Assembly (NCBI GenBank): GCA_028281325.1
Contig: JANQKC010000027.1
Coordinates: forward strand, 186,001 to 250,000
From: Alphaproteobacteria bacterium
Lineage (GTDB): Bacteria > Pseudomonadota > Alphaproteobacteria > UBA8366
Reading direction: 5' to 3'
Length of the DNA stretch: 64,000 nucleotides
Shown: piece after piece, positions 15,344 to 62,067 of the stretch
Numbering within the stretch: position 1 is the first letter of the stretch
Layout: each line of letters opens with the position of its first letter
Position numbers and translations under genes: made by a program
Notes under the pieces: generated by a model
Seen by the model: the letters and a program-made list of their open reading frames with translations, nothing else
The model's database searches: none
What the model was told of the DNA's origin: nothing

Positions 15344-18300
15344 CTAGCCGCTGGGCGGCGACGGCGGTTGCGGAATCGCAGCCGGCGCGTCGGTGTCCGC
15401 CCGTTGCGCATCGGTCTGCGTATTCGGGACGGCGCCGCCGGCGGCCGCGGCATCCGGTGCGGGACTCTTCGATTGGGTCACTTTGCTCGGCTCGATCAGG
15501 CGCTCGCGATAGTTCTTCAGAAAGGCGTCGAAGCTGTCGCTTTCTGCCATCTTGCGGGTGATGTCGTCGATATTCCTGGTCGCCCGCCCGGTTGGGCTCG
15601 AGATGAACGCGAAGGCGTCGGCGAGCTTGCTCTGGGCCATGCCGGGCCCATACAGATCGCGCAGCATGATGATCCCCGCCTCGTCGCGCTTCAGGCGAAG
15701 CGCTACCGCCCAGCTCAGGATGAAATTCGCCTGGTCTTCGGGATAACCGCCTTCGGCAAGCGGATCGCCCGCAAGACGCTGCAACACCTTCGCCGCTTCG
15801 GAATAATTCCGGGTGCTCCAATAAATATTCGCCCGCAACAGGTCCGCTTCCCGGCTCACGTCCCCGGCCAGCAGCGCGATGGCTTCCTCGTATCGTCCGA
15901 GCTCCAACGTCGCTTTCGCGCGTATCCGGCGACGGTCGTCATCCAAGTCGGTCGAGAGGTTGGGCTGGAAACTACTGCGCAGCGCCGACAACGCCCCCTT
16001 CGGATTACGATCGAGCAGCCGGATCACCGCAAGCTTGGCGCCGACGCGCGCCCGATCCTCACCCTTAAGGCGGAACCGTACCTGATGCGCCAGAAGATCC
16101 GCCGCGCGACCGAGCAGGTCGACGGAAACCAGCCGCTCGGCGAGTTTCTGGATCATGAGGTCGCCTTCGCTTCCCGCCGGCGTCAATTCGCGGAAGTCGT
16201 CATACAGCGCCAATGCCTGCAAGGGCGGCAGCGCGTCCGCGCCGCCCTCCAAATGCAACTCGCGGAAGGCGGCCGTCATGAGCTGAGCGATGTCCTGCAC
16301 TTTCTTGTTGTTCGGATAGTAGGTGATCGCCGTGCGCAGCGTGTTCAATCCCTTCCGAAACTCGCCTTTGTTCAGATGGAGGGAGCCCAGGCGCTTGAGC
16401 ACCGCGAGCTCAAGATCGTCCCCGCGCCACTGAAACCGCAGCCTTTCGAGGCGCTCGATGGCTTCTTCGACCGTCACGGTTTCCTGCTGCAGTCCCAGTT
16501 CGACAAGCGCGAACTCCGACCGCGCGACATGCCAACGGTCGGCGGTTTTCTTCGAACTCATCCAATGCTCGACCGCACGGTCCAAATCCCGGCTGCCTCG
16601 CGCCAAGACGCCTTGGTTATAGTGCAGCCGCGCGAGCTGGCTGCGTGTCATTCTGTCTGCGTTCTTGCCCAGAAAATTGAGCCAGATCGACGCGTTGCCC
16701 ACATCCAGGTCCGCCAAACTCGCCTCGACCCGTTCCAGCGCCAGCTTCGTGCGGATCGGCTCGGGATAGCTTTGCAAGACCGGGTCGCCGGTCCGGAACT
16801 GCGCCGCGGCTTTCTTCATCTCGCCCGTCTGAAGAAACATCGAGCCGCGCCACAACGATATCTCCTGATAATCATCCAATCTGGGATCGAGCAAATCCTT
16901 ACGCGCCTCATGCGGACGTCCCATGTAGACCCGCGTCGCCGCGATCAGGGCGCGGAACTCCGGTTGCGAGGCCAGCGTTTCGTTCGAAAATTCGATCGTC
17001 CGCAAAACGCCGAGCGCTTCGGGCGCAAACCCTTGGGTAAAGAAGTATCGGGCAAGGTCGAGCCGGGCATCGTCGCGCCGTTCTTTCGGAACCTCGACAA
17101 TCGCGCGCATCGCCGATTGCCTAGCCTTAAAAAAATCCGGGTCGCGGTTCTTCGTCCAGTTTCCGAAATTGAAGATGCGCGGCCCAAGATACGCGCCGTC
17201 GCCGACGCCGCCTTGCGAAACCGACGAAACATGAAGACCGCCCGGCGCGCCGACGACGATCCCCCGATCGCCGGCCGCCTTCAGGCTCACGTCGTCACTC
17301 AACGGATCAATCGCCACGCCCTGCGCCGACGCGAGGACTTGAAATTCGGAATACGCGCGGGGGTCGGCGACGCCATGACCGGGTGCCTGAAGTGTCGCGA
17401 CAAACAAACTGTCGCCCACTTCCGGATCGTCCAGTTTCAGGATACGCCCGACTTCGGATACCGGCAGTTCCAACTCCGCGCCATCGATCGCTTCCGGCCG
17501 AATCCGGAGCGCAATTTCAACTTGCGGCGCGATGGGCCGGCGGCCGAACCGCACAATCCAGTTCGCCTCTTCCCGTTCCACCTGCGGATGGATGCCGGGC
17601 CGCGCCAGCAGACGCACGACCGTTCCTTCGCTTAGCGGCAGTTGTTCGATCTGCTCGATCATGTTCTTGCCGGCCGTCCGCAAAGCGGCCAGATTGAGCT
17701 GCGCGCGCCGGTCGAACACGATCCAAACGTAAGGATCCCGCACGAAGACCGCGGCGCCAACGGGTTCCGGCCATTCGAACACAAGACTGACTTCTCCGGC
17801 GTCCGGCTTGAGACTGACTTGATCGGCGGGCGAGTCCGCTGGCGTCGCCGTCGATGCCGCCGCCGGAGCATCCTCATCGGCCGCAACTTCTGACGTCGGA
17901 ACCGACGCCGTCGCCGGTTGATCGTCGGACGGTACGGTCGGCTCCGCCGGCGCGGTTGCCGCGACCGCATCCGGAGAAGGCGTGACGCCCGGCGCATCGG
18001 CCGGATCGGTCGAGGCCTCGGGCACGGCCGACGCTTCCGCCCCCTCCGCCGCCGTATCCGCTGACGATGTATCGCGCGGAACCGTCTCCGCCGCAGCCGT
18101 GGCCGAGGAGGTTTCGCGCGGCGCATCCGGTTGCGCCGCCGCTATGGTCTCGGTTTTGGGAGCCGGATCGGCGGCCCTGGCCGCTGCCGACGCCAGCGCC
18201 GGATCGGCCGACGGCGCTTGATCCGGCCCGGCGGCAGGGGGCGCTGTCGCAACCGGCTTGTCGACCGGCGCCTGCCCTTTGACGAAATCGACGACGACCT

Positions 18301-18979
18301 TCGGTCCAAGCTTGAAATGCTTGATCCGGCGGTCGTTGGATTTCGTGAATGTAATCGTGGTCGCCGAATCGCTCGTCTTGACCGCCGGGTTCGCGACGCC
18401 ATCCCCCAACCGGCGGCGCAGCGCCGCAATGTCGAAGCGGGCCGGCCGGTCGAATGTTATCACGACCGATTTTTCCGTTTCATCAACGCTGTACGCAACG
18501 GGCTTCACCCAATCGAACACCAAGCGAACGTATTTCGGGTGCTTCCCGACACGCACGCCGACCGCCTTGGTTTCCGCCGAGCGCGCACGGTCCGGCATCG
18601 CGGCCGGACGGCGAATATCAAGGACGACAGACCGCTTGTTCGCAAAACTCGAAACATCGAACTCGCCCGCGAGCAGGAACTCGGCCCGGCGGCCGTCCGC
18701 CGACACGCGCGCATCCGCAACATAGGGGCGCAGCCGCTGCACCACCGTTTTGAGATCGGCGGAAAACGGACGATCAAAACGGGCGGTCAACCGCCGGCCA
18801 TCGGTGGTTGCCGTGAACGATACAGGGCGCTTCCAGTCAAGGACGATCCGGGCATAGGTCGAATGGTCCCAGGTCCGAACGCCGACCGTTTCCCGCGCCG
18901 CGGCGTCACCGATGGAGGCGAGCCCGACAAATGCCGTCAACCCAACGATCGCCAGTGTCCGAATGCAACCTCGCATCAA
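15344..18979 (-). CDS. Large periplasmic protein with AMIN-like repeats, Ala/Pro/Glu-rich linker and TPR-like C-terminal region (1211 aa)
   Basis: Signal peptide MMRGCIRTLAIVGLTAFVGLASIGDAAA; repeated beta units such as VRTWDHSTYARIVLDWKRPVSFTATTDGRRLTARFDRPF, VRVGKHPKYVRLVFDWVKPVAYSVDETEKSVVITFDRPA, VSLVFEWPEPVGAAVFVRDPYVWIVFDRRA; TPR-like helices in the C-terminal half. Start overlaps the stop of the upstream motB-like gene (4 nt). Confidence 0.85.
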   Translation of the reverse strand: MMRGCIRTLAIVGLTAFVGLASIGDAAARETVGVRTWDHSTYARIVLDWKRPVSFTATTDGRRLTARFDRPFSADLKTVVQRLRPYVADARVSADGRRAEFLLAGEFDVSSFANKRSVVLDIRRPAAMPDRARSAETKAVGVRVGKHPKYVRLVFDWVKPVAYSVDETEKSVVITFDRPARFDIAALRRRLGDGVANPAVKTSDSATTITFTKSNDRRIKHFKLGPKVVVDFVKGQAPVDKPVATAPPAAGPDQAPSADPALASAAARAADPAPKTETIAAAQPDAPRETSSATAAAETVPRDTSSADTAAEGAEASAVPEASTDPADAPGVTPSPDAVAATAPAEPTVPSDDQPATASVPTSEVAADEDAPAAASTATPADSPADQVSLKPDAGEVSLVFEWPEPVGAAVFVRDPYVWIVFDRRAQLNLAALRTAGKNMIEQIEQLPLSEGTVVRLLARPGIHPQVEREEANWIVRFGRRPIAPQVEIALRIRPEAIDGAELELPVSEVGRILKLDDPEVGDSLFVATLQAPGHGVADPRAYSEFQVLASAQGVAIDPLSDDVSLKAAGDRGIVVGAPGGLHVSSVSQGGVGDGAYLGPRIFNFGNWTKNRDPDFFKARQSAMRAIVEVPKERRDDARLDLARYFFTQGFAPEALGVLRTIEFSNETLASQPEFRALIAATRVYMGRPHEARKDLLDPRLDDYQEISLWRGSMFLQTGEMKKAAAQFRTGDPVLQSYPEPIRTKLALERVEASLADLDVGNASIWLNFLGKNADRMTRSQLARLHYNQGVLARGSRDLDRAVEHWMSSKKTADRWHVARSEFALVELGLQQETVTVEEAIERLERLRFQWRGDDLELAVLKRLGSLHLNKGEFRKGLNTLRTAITYYPNNKKVQDIAQLMTAAFRELHLEGGADALPPLQALALYDDFRELTPAGSEGDLMIQKLAERLVSVDLLGRAADLLAHQVRFRLKGEDRARVGAKLAVIRLLDRNPKGALSALRSSFQPNLSTDLDDDRRRIRAKATLELGRYEEAIALLAGDVSREADLLRANIYWSTRNYSEAAKVLQRLAGDPLAEGGYPEDQANFILSWAVALRLKRDEAGIIMLRDLYGPGMAQSKLADAFAFISSPTGRATRNIDDITRKMAESDSFDAFLKNYRERLIEPSKVTQSKSPAPDAAAAGGAVPNTQTDAQRADTDAPAAIPQPPSPPSG

Positions 18980-19680
18980 GGCTCTCCTGCTGTCGGGTGA
19001 ATGACGATATCGACCCGGCGCGCCAACTGCCGGCGACGGTCGTCAGAGATGTCACGGTCAAGATGGTCGTATCGCGAGTCGCCCAAGCCAAGCATCGTCA
19101 CATTGCGTTGATAACCGATCCGCTTGAGCTCGTTCGCCACGGCGATCGCCCGCGCCAACGAAAGACGCCAATTCTGCATGACCGACGCGCTGTCTGATCC
19201 GCCCGGCGCGGTATGGCCGTATACGTCGATCTGATTGCCCATTTGCGCGAGAGCACTGGTCAAGCGGAAGAGCGCTTCCTTCGCGGATTCCGTGAGCGTC
19301 GCCCCGGTCGACAAAAACAGCCGCTCGGTCGGCAACGACACGATGACCAGTTTGTCCAGGCGATGTATCTGCGCGCGTCCAAGCACCTCGTCCTGGCTGA
19401 TCTTCTCCTCCAGCACCTGGCTCAGGTAGCCAAGCGGTAGAGCCGGCGGCACGTCGACGGTTGTGACGTTGAACGCGGAGTTCGGCGGCGGCCTGAGATT
19501 TTCCTTCGACGGGTCGGCGTTCGGCAACTTCGATACGACCGCCTGCCACTTTTCCGCCTCCAAGCTGGACATGGAAAACAGCATGACGAAAAAAGCGAGC
19601 AGCAGAGCGGAGATATCGGCAAATGTTACGAGCCAGCGGGCTTGGCCCGGCTGTTCTACGATATCTTTCTTGTCGACCAT
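18976..19680 (-). CDS. motB: MotB-like flagellar stator protein (OmpA/MotB family, PomB/MotS-like TM segment)
   Basis: WLVTFADISALLLAFFVMLFSMSSLEAEKW with conserved Asp; OmpA-like IDVYGHTAPGGSD...NWRLSLARAIAVANELKRIG...RRVDIVI. Confidence 0.88.
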   Translation of the reverse strand: MVDKKDIVEQPGQARWLVTFADISALLLAFFVMLFSMSSLEAEKWQAVVSKLPNADPSKENLRPPPNSAFNVTTVDVPPALPLGYLSQVLEEKISQDEVLGRAQIHRLDKLVIVSLPTERLFLSTGATLTESAKEALFRLTSALAQMGNQIDVYGHTAPGGSDSASVMQNWRLSLARAIAVANELKRIGYQRNVTMLGLGDSRYDHLDRDISDDRRRQLARRVDIVIHPTAGEP

Positions 19681-19682
19681 GG

Positions 19683-20357
19683 TTAGGGTTCCGCCCGCGG
19701 CTGGAACGTCACGCGCGCCCGCGCCGCCGCGCGGATGGCGAAGCGCAGACGCAAGACCTTGGGATCGCCGACTCGGACACCGGCGCTGACCTTGTCTTTG
19801 GCCGCGCCGACATCGAGCAAAGCGCCGGCCAAAACAACGGCCCGCCGGATCGGAAGCGGCGGGTCTTCGTCAAGTTTCGCAGGGTCAATCGGCTCCGTCC
19901 CGAGAACCAATTCCAGCTCGGCAACCATCGATTTCGCCTGGACCGACAAAACGCGTGCCGCCCTCTCCAGGAGGTCCCGCCGGTCGGTCCGCAGCTCCGC
20001 CTTCCCGCCAAGAAACAATTCGTTGGCCGGCATCGTGATCTGCATCAATTGCCCGGCGGTCAGCCTCTCGACCTTGATCACGGACACGGACGTCACCCAA
20101 AGCTGTTCCATCGCTTCCAGAACTTCGTCGGGATCCGAGGTCGGGCCGAGTTCGGCCAATAGAACCTGCGCCGACGTATCCGCGTCGACAACCGATCGGA
20201 AGGTCGCGGCAACGGACGTCAGAACCTGACGTGACTTTTCTTCTTCGATGGTGGCCAAAGCGTTCAAGAGAATAAAGAACGCGAGCAATAAAAGAAAGAG
20301 GCTCAGAAATACTAATGAGCCAGTATTAGATTCTGTTGCAAGTCTATTTTCGTGCAT
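19683..20357 (-). CDS. Degenerate MotB-like paralog lacking the ion-binding Asp
   Basis: SNTGSLVFLSLFLLLLAFFILLNALATIEEEKSRQVLTSVAATF aligns with the MotB TM region, but the Asp position is Ser; degenerate OmpA-like C-terminus (PIRRAVVLAGALLDVGAAKDKVSAGVRVGDPKVLRLRFAIR). Confidence 0.75.
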   Translation of the reverse strand: MHENRLATESNTGSLVFLSLFLLLLAFFILLNALATIEEEKSRQVLTSVAATFRSVVDADTSAQVLLAELGPTSDPDEVLEAMEQLWVTSVSVIKVERLTAGQLMQITMPANELFLGGKAELRTDRRDLLERAARVLSVQAKSMVAELELVLGTEPIDPAKLDEDPPLPIRRAVVLAGALLDVGAAKDKVSAGVRVGDPKVLRLRFAIRAAARARVTFQPRAEP

Positions 20358-20369
20358 TGCATGCGCCGA

Positions 20370-21014
20370 CTAGTCAAAACTTGCCAGGATCTTATCGATC
20401 TCCTCTTGACTATTCGCTGTCCCGGCGTCCTGCGGGCCATGCAATATTTGTTCCTCTTTACGCGCGTCTTCCTGGTCAAGCTCTTCCGACAGGGCCGCGT
20501 TCCGCTCGATCGCGTCAGCATCCCCCAAGACGGCCTTTGCGCGCGTGATGTTCAGCTCGACATGCCGCAGCATATCCTCGACCCGCGTCAGGCGCTGCCC
20601 GGTGATATCTTGAAAGCTGCAGGCTTCGTAAATGGCGGTGGTCACGTCGAAGACCGCCGCCTGCATCGCGCCGTCCTCTTCATCTGCGAAGTTTTCGATA
20701 TCTTCCGTGACGGCGAGGATCGCGCTGGCGGCGTCCTGCGTGGCGGCGCGCACCTTTTCGATCTCCTCGGCGATATCCGAAAACGCCAACCCGTTCTTCT
20801 CGAAATCGCTTAGCGCGGTAAGCGCATCGGCGGCCGCGACCTGTGCGGACATCGACTGTTCGTCTGGTGCCGCCGGCTGGACGAAATCGCCGTGCAACGT
20901 TTTGACGACGTTCTCAATTATTTCGGCAAGCTCCGCGGCGGACAACGGACGGTCGCCGTCCGCCTTGAGATTATCAAGGCACTCCTGGAGCTCGGGTGTG
21001 GCCGAGCGCATCAT
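20370..21014 (-). CDS. cheZ: Protein phosphatase CheZ
   Basis: ACSFQDITGQRLTRVEDMLRHVE and C-terminal EEIDKILASFD tail. Confidence 0.85.
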   Translation of the reverse strand: MMRSATPELQECLDNLKADGDRPLSAAELAEIIENVVKTLHGDFVQPAAPDEQSMSAQVAAADALTALSDFEKNGLAFSDIAEEIEKVRAATQDAASAILAVTEDIENFADEEDGAMQAAVFDVTTAIYEACSFQDITGQRLTRVEDMLRHVELNITRAKAVLGDADAIERNAALSEELDQEDARKEEQILHGPQDAGTANSQEEIDKILASFD

Positions 21015-21027
21015 GAGATTGCCCTAC

Positions 21028-21414
21028 TTAGAAATCGCCGAGGACGCTGGTGAGCTTGCTCTTCAAGGTGGCCGCGTTGAACGGCTTCACAATGTAGTTG
21101 TTCACGCCGGCTTCCTTGGCGGCGACAACGTTCTCGGTCTTGCTTTCCGCGGTGATCATAATGAACGGAGTCTCGCGAAGAGATTCATCCACCCGAACCT
21201 GCTTCAACAACTCCAGCCCCGTCATCGGCTCCATGTTCCAATCGGAAATCACCAGGCCGTATTTGCGCTGCTGCATGCGTTCCAGCGCCGCTTTTCCATC
21301 CGTCGCTTCATCGACATTGTTGAAGCCGATCTGCTTGAGCAGATTACGGATGATCCGCAGCATCGTCTTGTAGTCGTCCACAATCAATACCGGCATCTCA
21401 AGATCAACAGCCAT
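21028..21414 (-). CDS. cheY: Chemotaxis response regulator CheY
   Basis: PVLIVDDYKTMLRIIRNLLKQIGFNNVDEATDGKAALE...LVISDWNMEPMTGLELLKQVR...MITAES...NYIVKPFNAATLKSKL. Confidence 0.95.
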   Translation of the reverse strand: MAVDLEMPVLIVDDYKTMLRIIRNLLKQIGFNNVDEATDGKAALERMQQRKYGLVISDWNMEPMTGLELLKQVRVDESLRETPFIMITAESKTENVVAAKEAGVNNYIVKPFNAATLKSKLTSVLGDF

Positions 21415-21521: not shown

Positions 21522-22250
21522 TTAGCGGCTATCGGCCGTGGCGCCGGGGGCCGGCGTCTTCTGCCGCTTCGCCATGCTTCGCGTGATCTTCCGGGCTTTG
21601 TCGGGGTTCATCGCCGCGACAACGGGCGCGAGCTTGCGCACTTTCATGCGCTCCACCACACTCATCAGAACGGGCATCTCAAGTTCGTCGAAAATCTTGG
21701 CGGCATCCTTCGGCTTCATGTTCTCGTATACCTTAACGAGATTGCCGATCCGCCGCTGCTCTTTCGCATCAAGTTGATCCAACAACCCCCTGACTTCGCT
21801 GCGCATTGCAAGTAACTCGGCTTGCCGGTCGACAAGTTTCTGCTCGGCGGCCTGCAACAGCGCCTCGCGTTGGTTCAAGCTCTCTTCGCGGCTATCGAGG
21901 GTCGAACGGCGTTGCGCGAGCGCCTGCAACAGCTGGATTTCCGATTTGCTCAGTTGGCGCGGATCGATCGGCCGACCGGGCGGCGTCACTTCGTTTCCGG
22001 CATTCCCGTCGGGTTTCGGATCGGAGGTGAGCGCCGGCGGCGCATTCGCCGGGTTGATAGCGGGCGCGGGCTGATCGCCGGCGGCGTCCCCGCCCACGGC
22101 CGGATTCGCCGGTTCCTGCGCCACGGCCACGGCCGACTGCCAGTCGCCGCCGTCCCGCAAGGATGAAACACCCTGCCAAATCGACCCGAGTTTGAGCGTC
22201 AGCATGGTCGCCGCGACGAAAATCAGGGCGGGGAGAAGTCGAAACCGCAT
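21522..22250 (-). CDS. MotE-like flagellar protein (MgtE N-domain-like)
   Basis: N-terminal TM; coiled coil; VKVYENMKPKDAAKIFDELEMPVLMSVVERMKVRKLAPVVAAMNPDKARKIT. Confidence 0.75.
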   Translation of the reverse strand: MRFRLLPALIFVAATMLTLKLGSIWQGVSSLRDGGDWQSAVAVAQEPANPAVGGDAAGDQPAPAINPANAPPALTSDPKPDGNAGNEVTPPGRPIDPRQLSKSEIQLLQALAQRRSTLDSREESLNQREALLQAAEQKLVDRQAELLAMRSEVRGLLDQLDAKEQRRIGNLVKVYENMKPKDAAKIFDELEMPVLMSVVERMKVRKLAPVVAAMNPDKARKITRSMAKRQKTPAPGATADSR

Positions 22251-22260
22251 CGTCGGCCGC

Positions 22261-22755
22261 CTAACGGATCCCGTCCAGCGCGCGCAGCAACGCCGCCTTC
22301 TTACGTCCGCTATCGGACATGTCGCGGCCGCGATTGCCGGGCCGCAAACCGGTTACGCCCGACACACCGGCGCCTTGATCATTCGCGCCGGGACCGAACG
22401 TCCGGACGTTACGATCGCCGCCACGCCCGGCGCCGATCGAATGATCCAGACGATCCGCGACACCGCCGGCGCGGTCGATCATAAAAGCGAGATCGTCACA
22501 AAGTTGTTTGGCTTGTTTGATGCTGGCATGCAGCGATTCATTCGCTTCCAGCGAGCCGGATCGAAGTTTCTGCACGCTCGCTTCCGCCCTGGCCGTCGAT
22601 TGATTGAAGCTGGCGATCAGTTTCTGCAAATGCGCCTTATCCGCCTTCAACAGCGTGAGCCGCCGATTCAGTTGCACCGCATATAGGATCATCACCAACA
22701 GCAAGCATGCGCCAATCACTTCCACCACAAATGACAGGTGCGGAAACAGCATCAT
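22261..22755 (-). CDS. DUF6468-like membrane-anchored flagellar-cluster protein
   Basis: N-terminal TM then VQLNRRLTLLKADKAHLQKLIASFNQSTARAEASVQKLR; sits between fliM and motE-like gene. Family name from memory. Confidence 0.55.
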   Translation of the reverse strand: MMLFPHLSFVVEVIGACLLLVMILYAVQLNRRLTLLKADKAHLQKLIASFNQSTARAEASVQKLRSGSLEANESLHASIKQAKQLCDDLAFMIDRAGGVADRLDHSIGAGRGGDRNVRTFGPGANDQGAGVSGVTGLRPGNRGRDMSDSGRKKAALLRALDGIR

Positions 22756-23906
22756 TCGGTCTCCATTTTTTCTTCAATTCGCACCGCGATCTTCTCCCCC
22801 TTGCGTCCCATCAATCCCTTGAACAACTTGACTTCGCCGCATTTCAAGTCGACGAGCGATGCAGGCTTCGCAAGCAGGTCCAACCGCGATCCGACTTCCC
22901 ATCGCAGGACGTCGTTCAGCGACACGGTCGTATTGTCCAACACGGCTTCGAGCTCGACGTCGGTGAACCAGAGTTCGGTCGCCAGATGGTTTTCCCAGAT
23001 CGAGTCACGGCCGAACTTCTCGCCCATGAACATCTGCAGCAGCAGTTCGCGAACCGGCTCCAGCGTGGCATACGGCAGCAAGAGCTCCAGACGACCGCCG
23101 CGATCCTCCATATCGACGCGAAGCCGCGCGACGACGGCGGCGTTGGCCGGACGCGCGATCGTCGCGAAGCGCGGGTTGGTCTCCAGCCGATCGAAACGGA
23201 AGGTGACGGAACTCAACGGGTCGAACGCCGCGGACAGGTCGGCCAAGACGACCGCGATCATCCGTTCGACGAGGTTCCGTTCGATCGTCGTATAGGGCCG
23301 CCCTTCGATCCGCATCGCGGCCGTCCCGCGCCGCCCGCCGAGAAGCACGTCGACGATGGAATAGATAAGCGAACTATCGACCGTGATGAGGCCGAAGTTG
23401 TCCCACTCCTCCGCCTTGAAGACCGCAAGCATCGCCGGCAACGGAATTGAATTCAGATAGTCGCCGAACCGGATCGAACTGATATTGTCTAGGCTGACCT
23501 CGACGTTATCCGACGTGAAGTTGCGCAGCGAGGTCGACAACATGCGCACCAGGCGGTCGAAAACGACTTCCAGCATCGGCAGGCGTTCATAAGACACCAT
23601 GCCGCTGTCGATGATGGCTTCGATGCCCGACTTGTCGGACGTTTCCTCGCCGCCCTCGCGGAAGCCGAGAAGGCTGTCGATTTCATCCTGGTTGAGAACA
23701 CGGGCGTTGCCGCCGCCGCCGTCGTCCAAATCATCGCCGCCGTCGTCGTCGGCCATCGCGGCCCATTCCGCGGCGACGTCTTCATCGCTGCCGCCGCCCT
23801 CACCGCCGTCGGCGCCCTCGCCGTCTTCTTCGGCCATTGCAGCCCATTCCGCGGCAACGTCGTCGTCGTTTACTTCGCCTTCTTTTTCGTCGGCCATATC
23901 CACCAA
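22752..23906 (-). CDS. fliM: Flagellar motor switch protein FliM (with N-terminal extension)
   Basis: RVLNQDEIDSLLGF CheY-binding motif, SYERLPMLEVVFDRLVRMLSTSLRNFTSDNVEVSLDNI, C-terminal SPOA region. Confidence 0.95.
   Translation of the reverse strand: MVDMADEKEGEVNDDDVAAEWAAMAEEDGEGADGGEGGGSDEDVAAEWAAMADDDGGDDLDDGGGGNARVLNQDEIDSLLGFREGGEETSDKSGIEAIIDSGMVSYERLPMLEVVFDRLVRMLSTSLRNFTSDNVEVSLDNISSIRFGDYLNSIPLPAMLAVFKAEEWDNFGLITVDSSLIYSIVDVLLGGRRGTAAMRIEGRPYTTIERNLVERMIAVVLADLSAAFDPLSSVTFRFDRLETNPRFATIARPANAAVVARLRVDMEDRGGRLELLLPYATLEPVRELLLQMFMGEKFGRDSIWENHLATELWFTDVELEAVLDNTTVSLNDVLRWEVGSRLDLLAKPASLVDLKCGEVKLFKGLMGRKGEKIAVRIEEKMETE
23753..23872. repeat. 81-bp-period in-frame duplication in the fliM 5' end
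   Basis: GGCCATCGCGGCCCATTCCGCGGCGACGTC (23753) and GGCCATTGCAGCCCATTCCGCGGCAACGTC (23834), encoding DEDVAAEWAAMADDD / DDDVAAEWAAMAEED. Confidence 0.8.
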
Positions 23907-23954: not shown

Positions 23955-24512
23955 CTATTGCACAAGCATCTCGCGGAACAAAACGTCTCTTACTTTCGCC
24001 GGATGGGCCGCCGCGTTGACGCGCGCGAGCAGCTCCTCCTTCACTCGATACAGACCATGGGACCCCTGCAGTTCCTCGATGCGCAACTCGCGGAGAAACA
24101 CCTGGAAATTATCGATAATCCGCGGCATCACCGATTTGATGCGCGCTTCGTCGACCGCGCTCTCAAGCTCCAGGCTAAGCTGCATCTTGAGAAAGCTCGA
24201 CTTCCGGCCGGTCCCGCCGAGGGTCACGACCATCTCGTCCAGATCCAGGTAATGCGCCGCAACCGGCGGCGCGGCCGCGGCGTCACCCCCTTCCGCGGTC
24301 TGCGCGGCGTCGTCGCCGCCCAACAACCCCGAGAAGTAAACGCCAGCCCCCGCGCCCGCGAGCACGACGATGCCGATCACCGCGAATAGGATCAGCTTTT
24401 TCTTGCCGGATTTCTTCCCGGCACCGTCGCCATCGCCGTTTTCGACGTCTTCGCCATCGCCATCTGCGGCGTCGGCAACGGCTTCTTCTGCCTCATCCGG
24501 CTCGTCAGTCAT
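23955..24512 (-). CDS. fliL: Flagellar basal body-associated protein FliL
   Basis: KKKLILFAVIGIVVLAGAGAGVYFSGL; YLDLDEMVVTLGGTGRKSSFLKMQLSLELES; C-terminal VRDVLFREMLVQ. Confidence 0.9.
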   Translation of the reverse strand: MTDEPDEAEEAVADAADGDGEDVENGDGDGAGKKSGKKKLILFAVIGIVVLAGAGAGVYFSGLLGGDDAAQTAEGGDAAAAPPVAAHYLDLDEMVVTLGGTGRKSSFLKMQLSLELESAVDEARIKSVMPRIIDNFQVFLRELRIEELQGSHGLYRVKEELLARVNAAAHPAKVRDVLFREMLVQ

Positions 24513-61224: not shown

Positions 61225-62067
61225 ATGGCTTACGGTACGGAAACGTCAACGCGCCTGCGAAGCCCCGGCAGGATGAAAGCGCCGCCGGCTCGAATGGCGC
61301 TGGACGTCGCGACGCTTGTCGGACTGTCGGCGGCTTTCCTGCTCATCGCGATTGCGATCTTCATTGGCGGGTCGCCCGGCGCATTCGTCGACGGACCGGC
61401 AATCTTCATCGTTATCGGCGGGACCTTCGGCGTCACCACCGCCTGTTTCTCGCTCCAGGATATTCTCGTCAGCTTTCGCGTCGTCACCGAGGCGGTCTTC
61501 CGCACGGCGTCGAACCCGGCCGCCGCGGCCAACCACGTCATGCAGCTTGCCGACATGTCGCGCCGCAAGGGTGTTCTGTCGCTCCAAGACATTCTGCCGG
61601 ACCTCGCCCGGACCGGACTGCTGTATCGCGGCATCACGATGGTCGTCGACGGCAGCACGCCGGAAGAAGTCGAACGGATCATGCAGCGCGAAATCGACGC
61701 ATCGGGCAGACGGCATGTCCAGACGGTGCGCATCCTGCGCAAGGCCGCCGAAATCTCGCCCGCCATGGGCTTGATCGGCACGCTTGTCGGGTTGGTGCAG
61801 ATGCTGGGGAATCTCGAAGACCCGAGCACGATCGGCCCCAGCATGGCGGTGGCGCTCCTCACGACCTTCTACGGCGCCGTGTTGGCGAATCTCGTCTTCA
61901 CGCCACTCGCGTCGAAACTGGAACAGAACGAGATGGAAGAAGCGACGGTCAACAATCTCTACATCATGGCCGCCGGGTCCATCGCAAGGCAGGAAAACCC
62001 GCGACGGCTCGAAATGCTGCTCAACACGGCGTTGCCGCAAGGCCATCGGATTTCTTTCTACAGCTAG
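61225..62067 (+). CDS. motA: MotA/PomA-like flagellar stator protein
   Basis: LDVATLVGLSAAFLLIAIAIFIGGSPGAFVDGPAIFIVIGGTFGVTT...AAEISPAMGLIGTLVGLVQMLGNLEDPSTIGPSMAVALLTTFYGAVLANLVFTPLASKL. Confidence 0.92.
   Translation: MAYGTETSTRLRSPGRMKAPPARMALDVATLVGLSAAFLLIAIAIFIGGSPGAFVDGPAIFIVIGGTFGVTTACFSLQDILVSFRVVTEAVFRTASNPAAAANHVMQLADMSRRKGVLSLQDILPDLARTGLLYRGITMVVDGSTPEEVERIMQREIDASGRRHVQTVRILRKAAEISPAMGLIGTLVGLVQMLGNLEDPSTIGPSMAVALLTTFYGAVLANLVFTPLASKLEQNEMEEATVNNLYIMAAGSIARQENPRRLEMLLNTALPQGHRISFYS

Follow-up and report, generated by a model that had tools for sequence, protein, structure and literature searches.

A MotB paralog without the ion-binding aspartate is conserved upstream of MotB in many flagellate alphaproteobacteria

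About a hundred alphaproteobacterial genomes carry, immediately upstream of the stator gene motB, a gene for a second MotB-like protein, here termed MotB′, which lacks the ion-binding aspartate and the peptidoglycan motif, both of them defining for B subunits of the stator. Many alphaproteobacteria may run their motor on two unlike B subunits, only one of them ion-binding. The current view holds the B-subunit aspartate to be universal and describes the stator as a symmetric 5:2 motor, with one ion taken per 36-degree step. A natural B subunit without this residue, kept with its partner across a class, provides a ready test of a stator working on a single ion site, and bears on what determines the number of ions per turn and on how peptidoglycan anchoring is shared.

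MotB′ would tend to escape surveys that either require Asp32, as in a MotB ancestral-reconstruction study that excluded sequences without it and called the residue universally conserved (PMC7787011), or take the gene next to motA as the B subunit, as in a wide MotAB survey that assigned it by proximity (PMC12505986). The literature searched on two-MotB systems, B heterodimers and MotB without Asp, mostly outside subscription papers, contained no description of MotB′, and an earlier notice is possible.

Two MotB-like genes in tandem

The window, a 64,000-nucleotide stretch of an alphaproteobacterial genome, contains the following features:

15344–18979, minus strand: protein of 1211 aa, secreted-looking, with AMIN domain and TPRs, encoded just downstream of MotB; a conserved neighbour
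18976–19680, minus strand: canonical MotB partner (P0001), 234 aa, with MotB_plug and OmpA
19615–19617, minus strand: codon of partner MotB Asp22, the ion-binding Asp
19683–20357, minus strand: MotB′ (P0002), 224 aa, with one transmembrane (TM) helix, a degenerate OmpA-like periplasmic domain and Ser19 at the Asp position
20301–20303, minus strand: codon of MotB′ Ser19, the residue aligned, without gaps, to the ion-binding Asp of MotB
20370–21014, minus strand: CheZ, directly upstream of MotB′
21028–21414, minus strand: CheY-like response regulator
21522–22250, minus strand: MotE/FlbB-like protein with an MgtE_N domain; a conserved neighbour
22261–22755, minus strand: DUF6468 protein; a conserved neighbour
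22752–23906, minus strand: FliM
23955–24512, minus strand: FliL
61225–62067, plus strand: MotA of the type that accompanies MotB′ class-wide, apart from the operon, after fliN

Both B genes lie exactly where the original prediction had placed them. They are read from the minus strand, which it had left unstated, and the plus strand encodes no such proteins at either position. Two bases separate them. The downstream gene is the canonical MotB it had been taken for, with Asp22 and Pfam matches to MotB_plug at 56.3 bits and OmpA at 38.5 bits (cut-offs 24 and 27.2 bits). MotB′ reaches 22.4 bits for MotB_plug, just below the cut-off, and this is the sole type matched: the Pfam scan of its 224 residues gave neither OmpA nor ExbD. 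MotB_plug is matched at E 0.01 or better by 40 of 47 MotB′ relatives, and in NCBIfam the top matches of MotB′ and of MotB alike include MotD (PRK09038), far under its cut-off. A profile–profile comparison of the two families (probability 97.4, E 1e-11, 200 columns) goes far beyond chance and confirms, at the level of sequence, their common descent over the full length; that MotB′ is related to MotB is a certainty.

Anchored on AFF, an ungapped alignment sets DISALLLAFF of MotB (Asp22) against SLFLLLLAFF of MotB′ (Ser19), which bears out the predicted replacement of Asp by Ser; in the hhalign alignment the Asp column instead falls into a gap of three residues, leaving the Ser and the Asp unpaired. 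An acidic residue at the pore position, which would have spoken against the replacement, was looked for: whichever alignment is used, 111 of the 113 MotB′ family members have none in the core of the TM helix. Substitution by an acidic residue elsewhere in the MotB′ helix was considered and rejected, there being none.

The AlphaFold2 model of MotB′ (mean pLDDT 81.8) has one long helix at residues 13–54 followed by an OmpA/MotB-like domain, in agreement with the MotB topology proposed for it. In the PDB it comes closest to periplasmic domains of MotB proteins, which the partner MotB, modelled likewise, matches more closely. The G[HYE][TS]D (GHTD-type) peptidoglycan motif is found in 0 of 113 MotB′ sequences, the OmpA-family helix Arg is kept in 101 of 113, and the partner MotB family mostly keeps the motif positions. 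The degenerate C-terminus that had been predicted is therefore degenerate in sequence but not in fold, which the modelled domain retains despite the lost motif.

Conservation of the family and of the ion-site residue

MotB′ follows the flagellum through the window's own order, being present in 29 of 32 genomes with FliG and in 0 of 11 without; the three FliG-positive genomes that lack it are 70–87% complete. Absence of the paralog from motile relatives, named beforehand as grounds for rejecting its role, is thus not the pattern found. In an evenly drawn sample of 396 alphaproteobacterial genomes, the MotB′ profile matched 101 and FliG was present in 237. A tblastn search of plasmid records with four family members as queries found no MotB′.

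The residue at the Asp column was tallied over 113 MotB′ and 111 partner sequences. MotB′ has Ser in 70, Gly in 24, Ala in 13, Cys in 3, Asn in 1 and Asp in 2, a small residue in 97% of cases, while the partner has Asp in all 110 readable sequences (one of the 111 is unreadable). Because the loci were found with the MotB′ profile, the tally describes the MotB′ family, not all tandem MotBs. The site is the first of several small residues in heptad spacing (0, +7 and +14), a pattern common to MotB, where 0 is the Asp, and it lies within a TM motif [SGAC]LxLLLLAFF in which the two Phe are kept. A Trp that precedes the Asp by six residues in 110 of 111 partner MotBs is lost in MotB′. Position by position, conservation along the TM helix shows no correlation between MotB and MotB′ (Spearman 0.005). 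This and the lost Trp indicate that the two helices are differently constrained, and a shared conservation pattern was accordingly rejected as support for equal pore positions of the two helices.

Compared between the window genome and the relative nearest to it, MotB′ has a dN/dS of 0.092 and MotB one of 0.086; by this measure MotB′ is under purifying selection equal to that on MotB. Loss of both the Asp and the peptidoglycan motif is what a decaying, functionless duplicate would show, yet a dN/dS of 0.09 like that of MotB, a motif conserved class-wide and retention in nearly all flagellate genomes of the order rule this explanation out for practical purposes.

Tandem MotBs elsewhere

In another class of the same phylum (groups f173 and f192), the gene order is motA-motB′-motB-fliL-fliM-fliN, and the upstream B gene has Glu, once Gln, at the ion site (FLELMMQMLAFFILL). 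A motA-motB′-motB cassette stands before fliL-fliM-fliN at loci L177, L178, L179 and L183, with Gln in L179 and Glu in the other three. Two further groups have motA-motB-motB with Asp kept in both B genes. The window's own genome contains a second stator locus on contig C36 (L043:3324-6761), where one MotA gene precedes a tandem of two MotB genes that each keep the canonical Asp (AYADFVTAMMAFF); it is a second case of one A and two B genes in a genome with a single FliG.

Within the alphaproteobacteria, two genomes have in-operon MotB′ orthologs with both the Asp and the upstream Trp (L196:8777-9556 and L197:3408-4142). Here the Asp was either retained or regained, perhaps through conversion by the motB next to it. 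A recent gene conversion in genome G241 is at most a tentative source of the Asp: 21 of 24 bases are alike over WIVSFSDL, with less likeness elsewhere. An upstream gene with Asp at L121 (genome G151) was set aside as probably a different thing, since it lies outside the operon and occurs without the MotA type. In a tree built without the Asp column, alphaproteobacterial MotB′ forms one side of a branch (96% SH-aLRT), and the Glu-type proteins are placed apart from it in the same quick tree, which has many long branches. As the Glu-type proteins stand apart in the tree, MotB′ may have arisen once or twice.

Operon, MotA co-occurrence and alternative roles

In 110 loci the two genes share a strand and MotB′ immediately precedes MotB; the distance between the MotB′ stop and the codon for the conserved Trp of MotB has a median of 61 nt. 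The conserved operon order is fliL-fliM-DUF6468-motE-like-(cheY)-(cheZ)-motB′-motB-TPR. In 90 loci, mostly short stretches, the pair has TPR downstream in 82, CheZ in 51, DUF6468 in 46 and the MotE-like gene, counted within those stretches, in 62. The original prediction had missed both this operon and the MotA elsewhere in the window (61225–62067, plus strand). Three of the neighbours deserve mention in themselves. The AMIN/TPR gene (15344–18979, minus strand) begins at the end of motB, and its product is a candidate periplasmic stator scaffold. The MotE-like protein (21522–22250, minus strand) matches FlbB, a collar protein of spirochetes, below threshold, and the DUF6468 membrane protein, encoded between fliM and the MotE-like gene, is conserved class-wide with no known function.

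MotB′ might sit outside the MotA pore, as a scaffold or adaptor held in the membrane by a TM helix that serves solely as anchor, with an OmpA-like domain that ties canonical MotA5-MotB2 stators to scaffolding in the periplasm, for example the AMIN/TPR protein. We regard this as unlikely but serious, because the peptidoglycan motif is gone, with the fold kept, and the secreted-looking AMIN/TPR protein is a constant neighbour. The nearby MotE-like protein and a TM conservation unlike that of MotB would also suit it. Against it, [SGAC]LxLLLLAFF is conserved far beyond what an anchor needs, the small residue falling precisely on the ion site, and the other class combines Glu or Gln at that site with the motA-motB′-motB order. 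A scaffold and a heterodimeric role could both apply at once.

MotB′ is also loyal to one MotA. An ortholog of the window's MotA is present in 105 FliG-positive genomes of the class sample, and MotB′ accompanies it in 96 of these 105, as opposed to 3 of the 132 without that MotA (Fisher 2e-51, uncorrected for phylogeny). Ten genomes with this MotA type had no MotB′ at first pass: five have a diverged MotB′ with Ser, Gly, Ala, Ser and Ser at the site, one has a two-Asp pair, and four have neither MotB′ nor a partner-type MotB.

Pairing with a single MotA type, the missing residue needed for ion flow and the adjacency of cheY and cheZ in many loci would also fit a brake or assembly regulator of the canonical stators, in which MotB′ forms a non-conducting MotA5-MotB′2 or competes for MotA. 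We consider such a separate regulatory complex improbable, since the one-to-one gene coupling is fixed: coupling to motB in 110 loci, together with near-total co-retention, suggests a stoichiometric part, and Glu in the other class and Asp in some orthologs are unlike a dead decoy. The original prediction, a non-ion-binding B subunit that acts with the canonical MotB, fits the conservation, the operon and the co-occurrence with one MotA; of the two roles it offered, mixed stators are favoured over restraint of the partner.

A proposed heterodimeric stator

The reading to which we give somewhat better than even credence is a heterodimeric MotA5-MotB-MotB′ stator, in which MotB′ is a dedicated second B subunit and the unit has one ion-binding Asp. 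The adjacent motB′ and motB genes are probably translationally coupled, and within the MotA pentamer their products would together make up a heterodimeric axle. MotB alone would contribute the ion-binding Asp and the greater part of the peptidoglycan-binding motif, and MotB′, whose ion-site residue is small, would occupy the second axle position. The OmpA-like domain of MotB′ would not bind peptidoglycan; it might hold the partner's domain or dock on a periplasmic part, perhaps the TPR/AMIN protein. In the 5:2 model, one ion is taken per 36-degree step by each MotB's Asp in turn (PMC9389320). One Asp per unit would give about five ions per turn, or 72 degrees per ion.

We infer the heterodimer from the tight pairing with motB, the co-occurrence with one MotA type, the preference for small residues at the site and the acidic residue found at the same site in the motA-motB′-motB operon of the other class. 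Mutating the MotB Asp to Asn abolishes motility, D32N giving no rotation, and a change to Glu leaves motility reduced (PMC6663468). In the other class, Glu or Gln at the site suits a pore position for MotB′, because D-to-E stators keep some function (PMC6663468). Three observations count against the heterodimer: D32N stators drive no rotation (PMC6663468); TM conservation is uncorrelated between MotB and MotB′ and the Trp is lost; and a few genomes have the MotA type without MotB′ and without a partner-type MotB. MotB homodimers possibly exist besides the heterodimer.

A broader version, which we put forward tentatively and at a little under even confidence, is that the stator is obligately heterodimeric in many flagellate alphaproteobacteria and in one further class. 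In the alphaproteobacteria, only one B subunit would bind ions, with about half the ions per turn of the standard model, and evolution would have led from a two-Asp pair through Glu or Gln to Ser, Gly or Ala.

Comparison with known stator systems

MotB′ resembles the B subunits of MotA5-MotB2 and PomA5-PomB2 in its MotB topology, FF-containing TM helix and OmpA-like C-terminal fold, and its gene forms a pair with motB and co-occurs with a MotA. In contrast, the described B subunits form a homodimer with a "universally conserved" Asp, whereas MotB′ has Ser, Gly, Ala or Cys and no GHTD. The AglR-AglQ-AglS system of Myxococcus gliding also has one MotA/TolQ-like gene with two B-type genes, a likeness that here concerns gene content and order. 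A B heterodimer has been discussed for AglRQS and is unsettled; the proton-binding site on AglQ is stressed, and no B subunit without Asp is described (PMC9389320, PMC9120999). The AglRQS B proteins are of the ExbD/TolR type and serve gliding, whereas MotB′ gives MotB_plug and is flagellar.

More than one MotB per genome is also reported from Aquifex, with MotA, MotB1 and MotB2, and from Paenibacillus, with MotAB1 and MotAB2. The extra MotBs of both are alternative ion-binding B subunits and are not known to include an Asp-less partner. In Pseudomonas, MotAB and MotCD each have their own single canonical B subunit; the likeness lies in the second stator locus, which the genome studied here also has, and in MotD being among the best NCBIfam matches.
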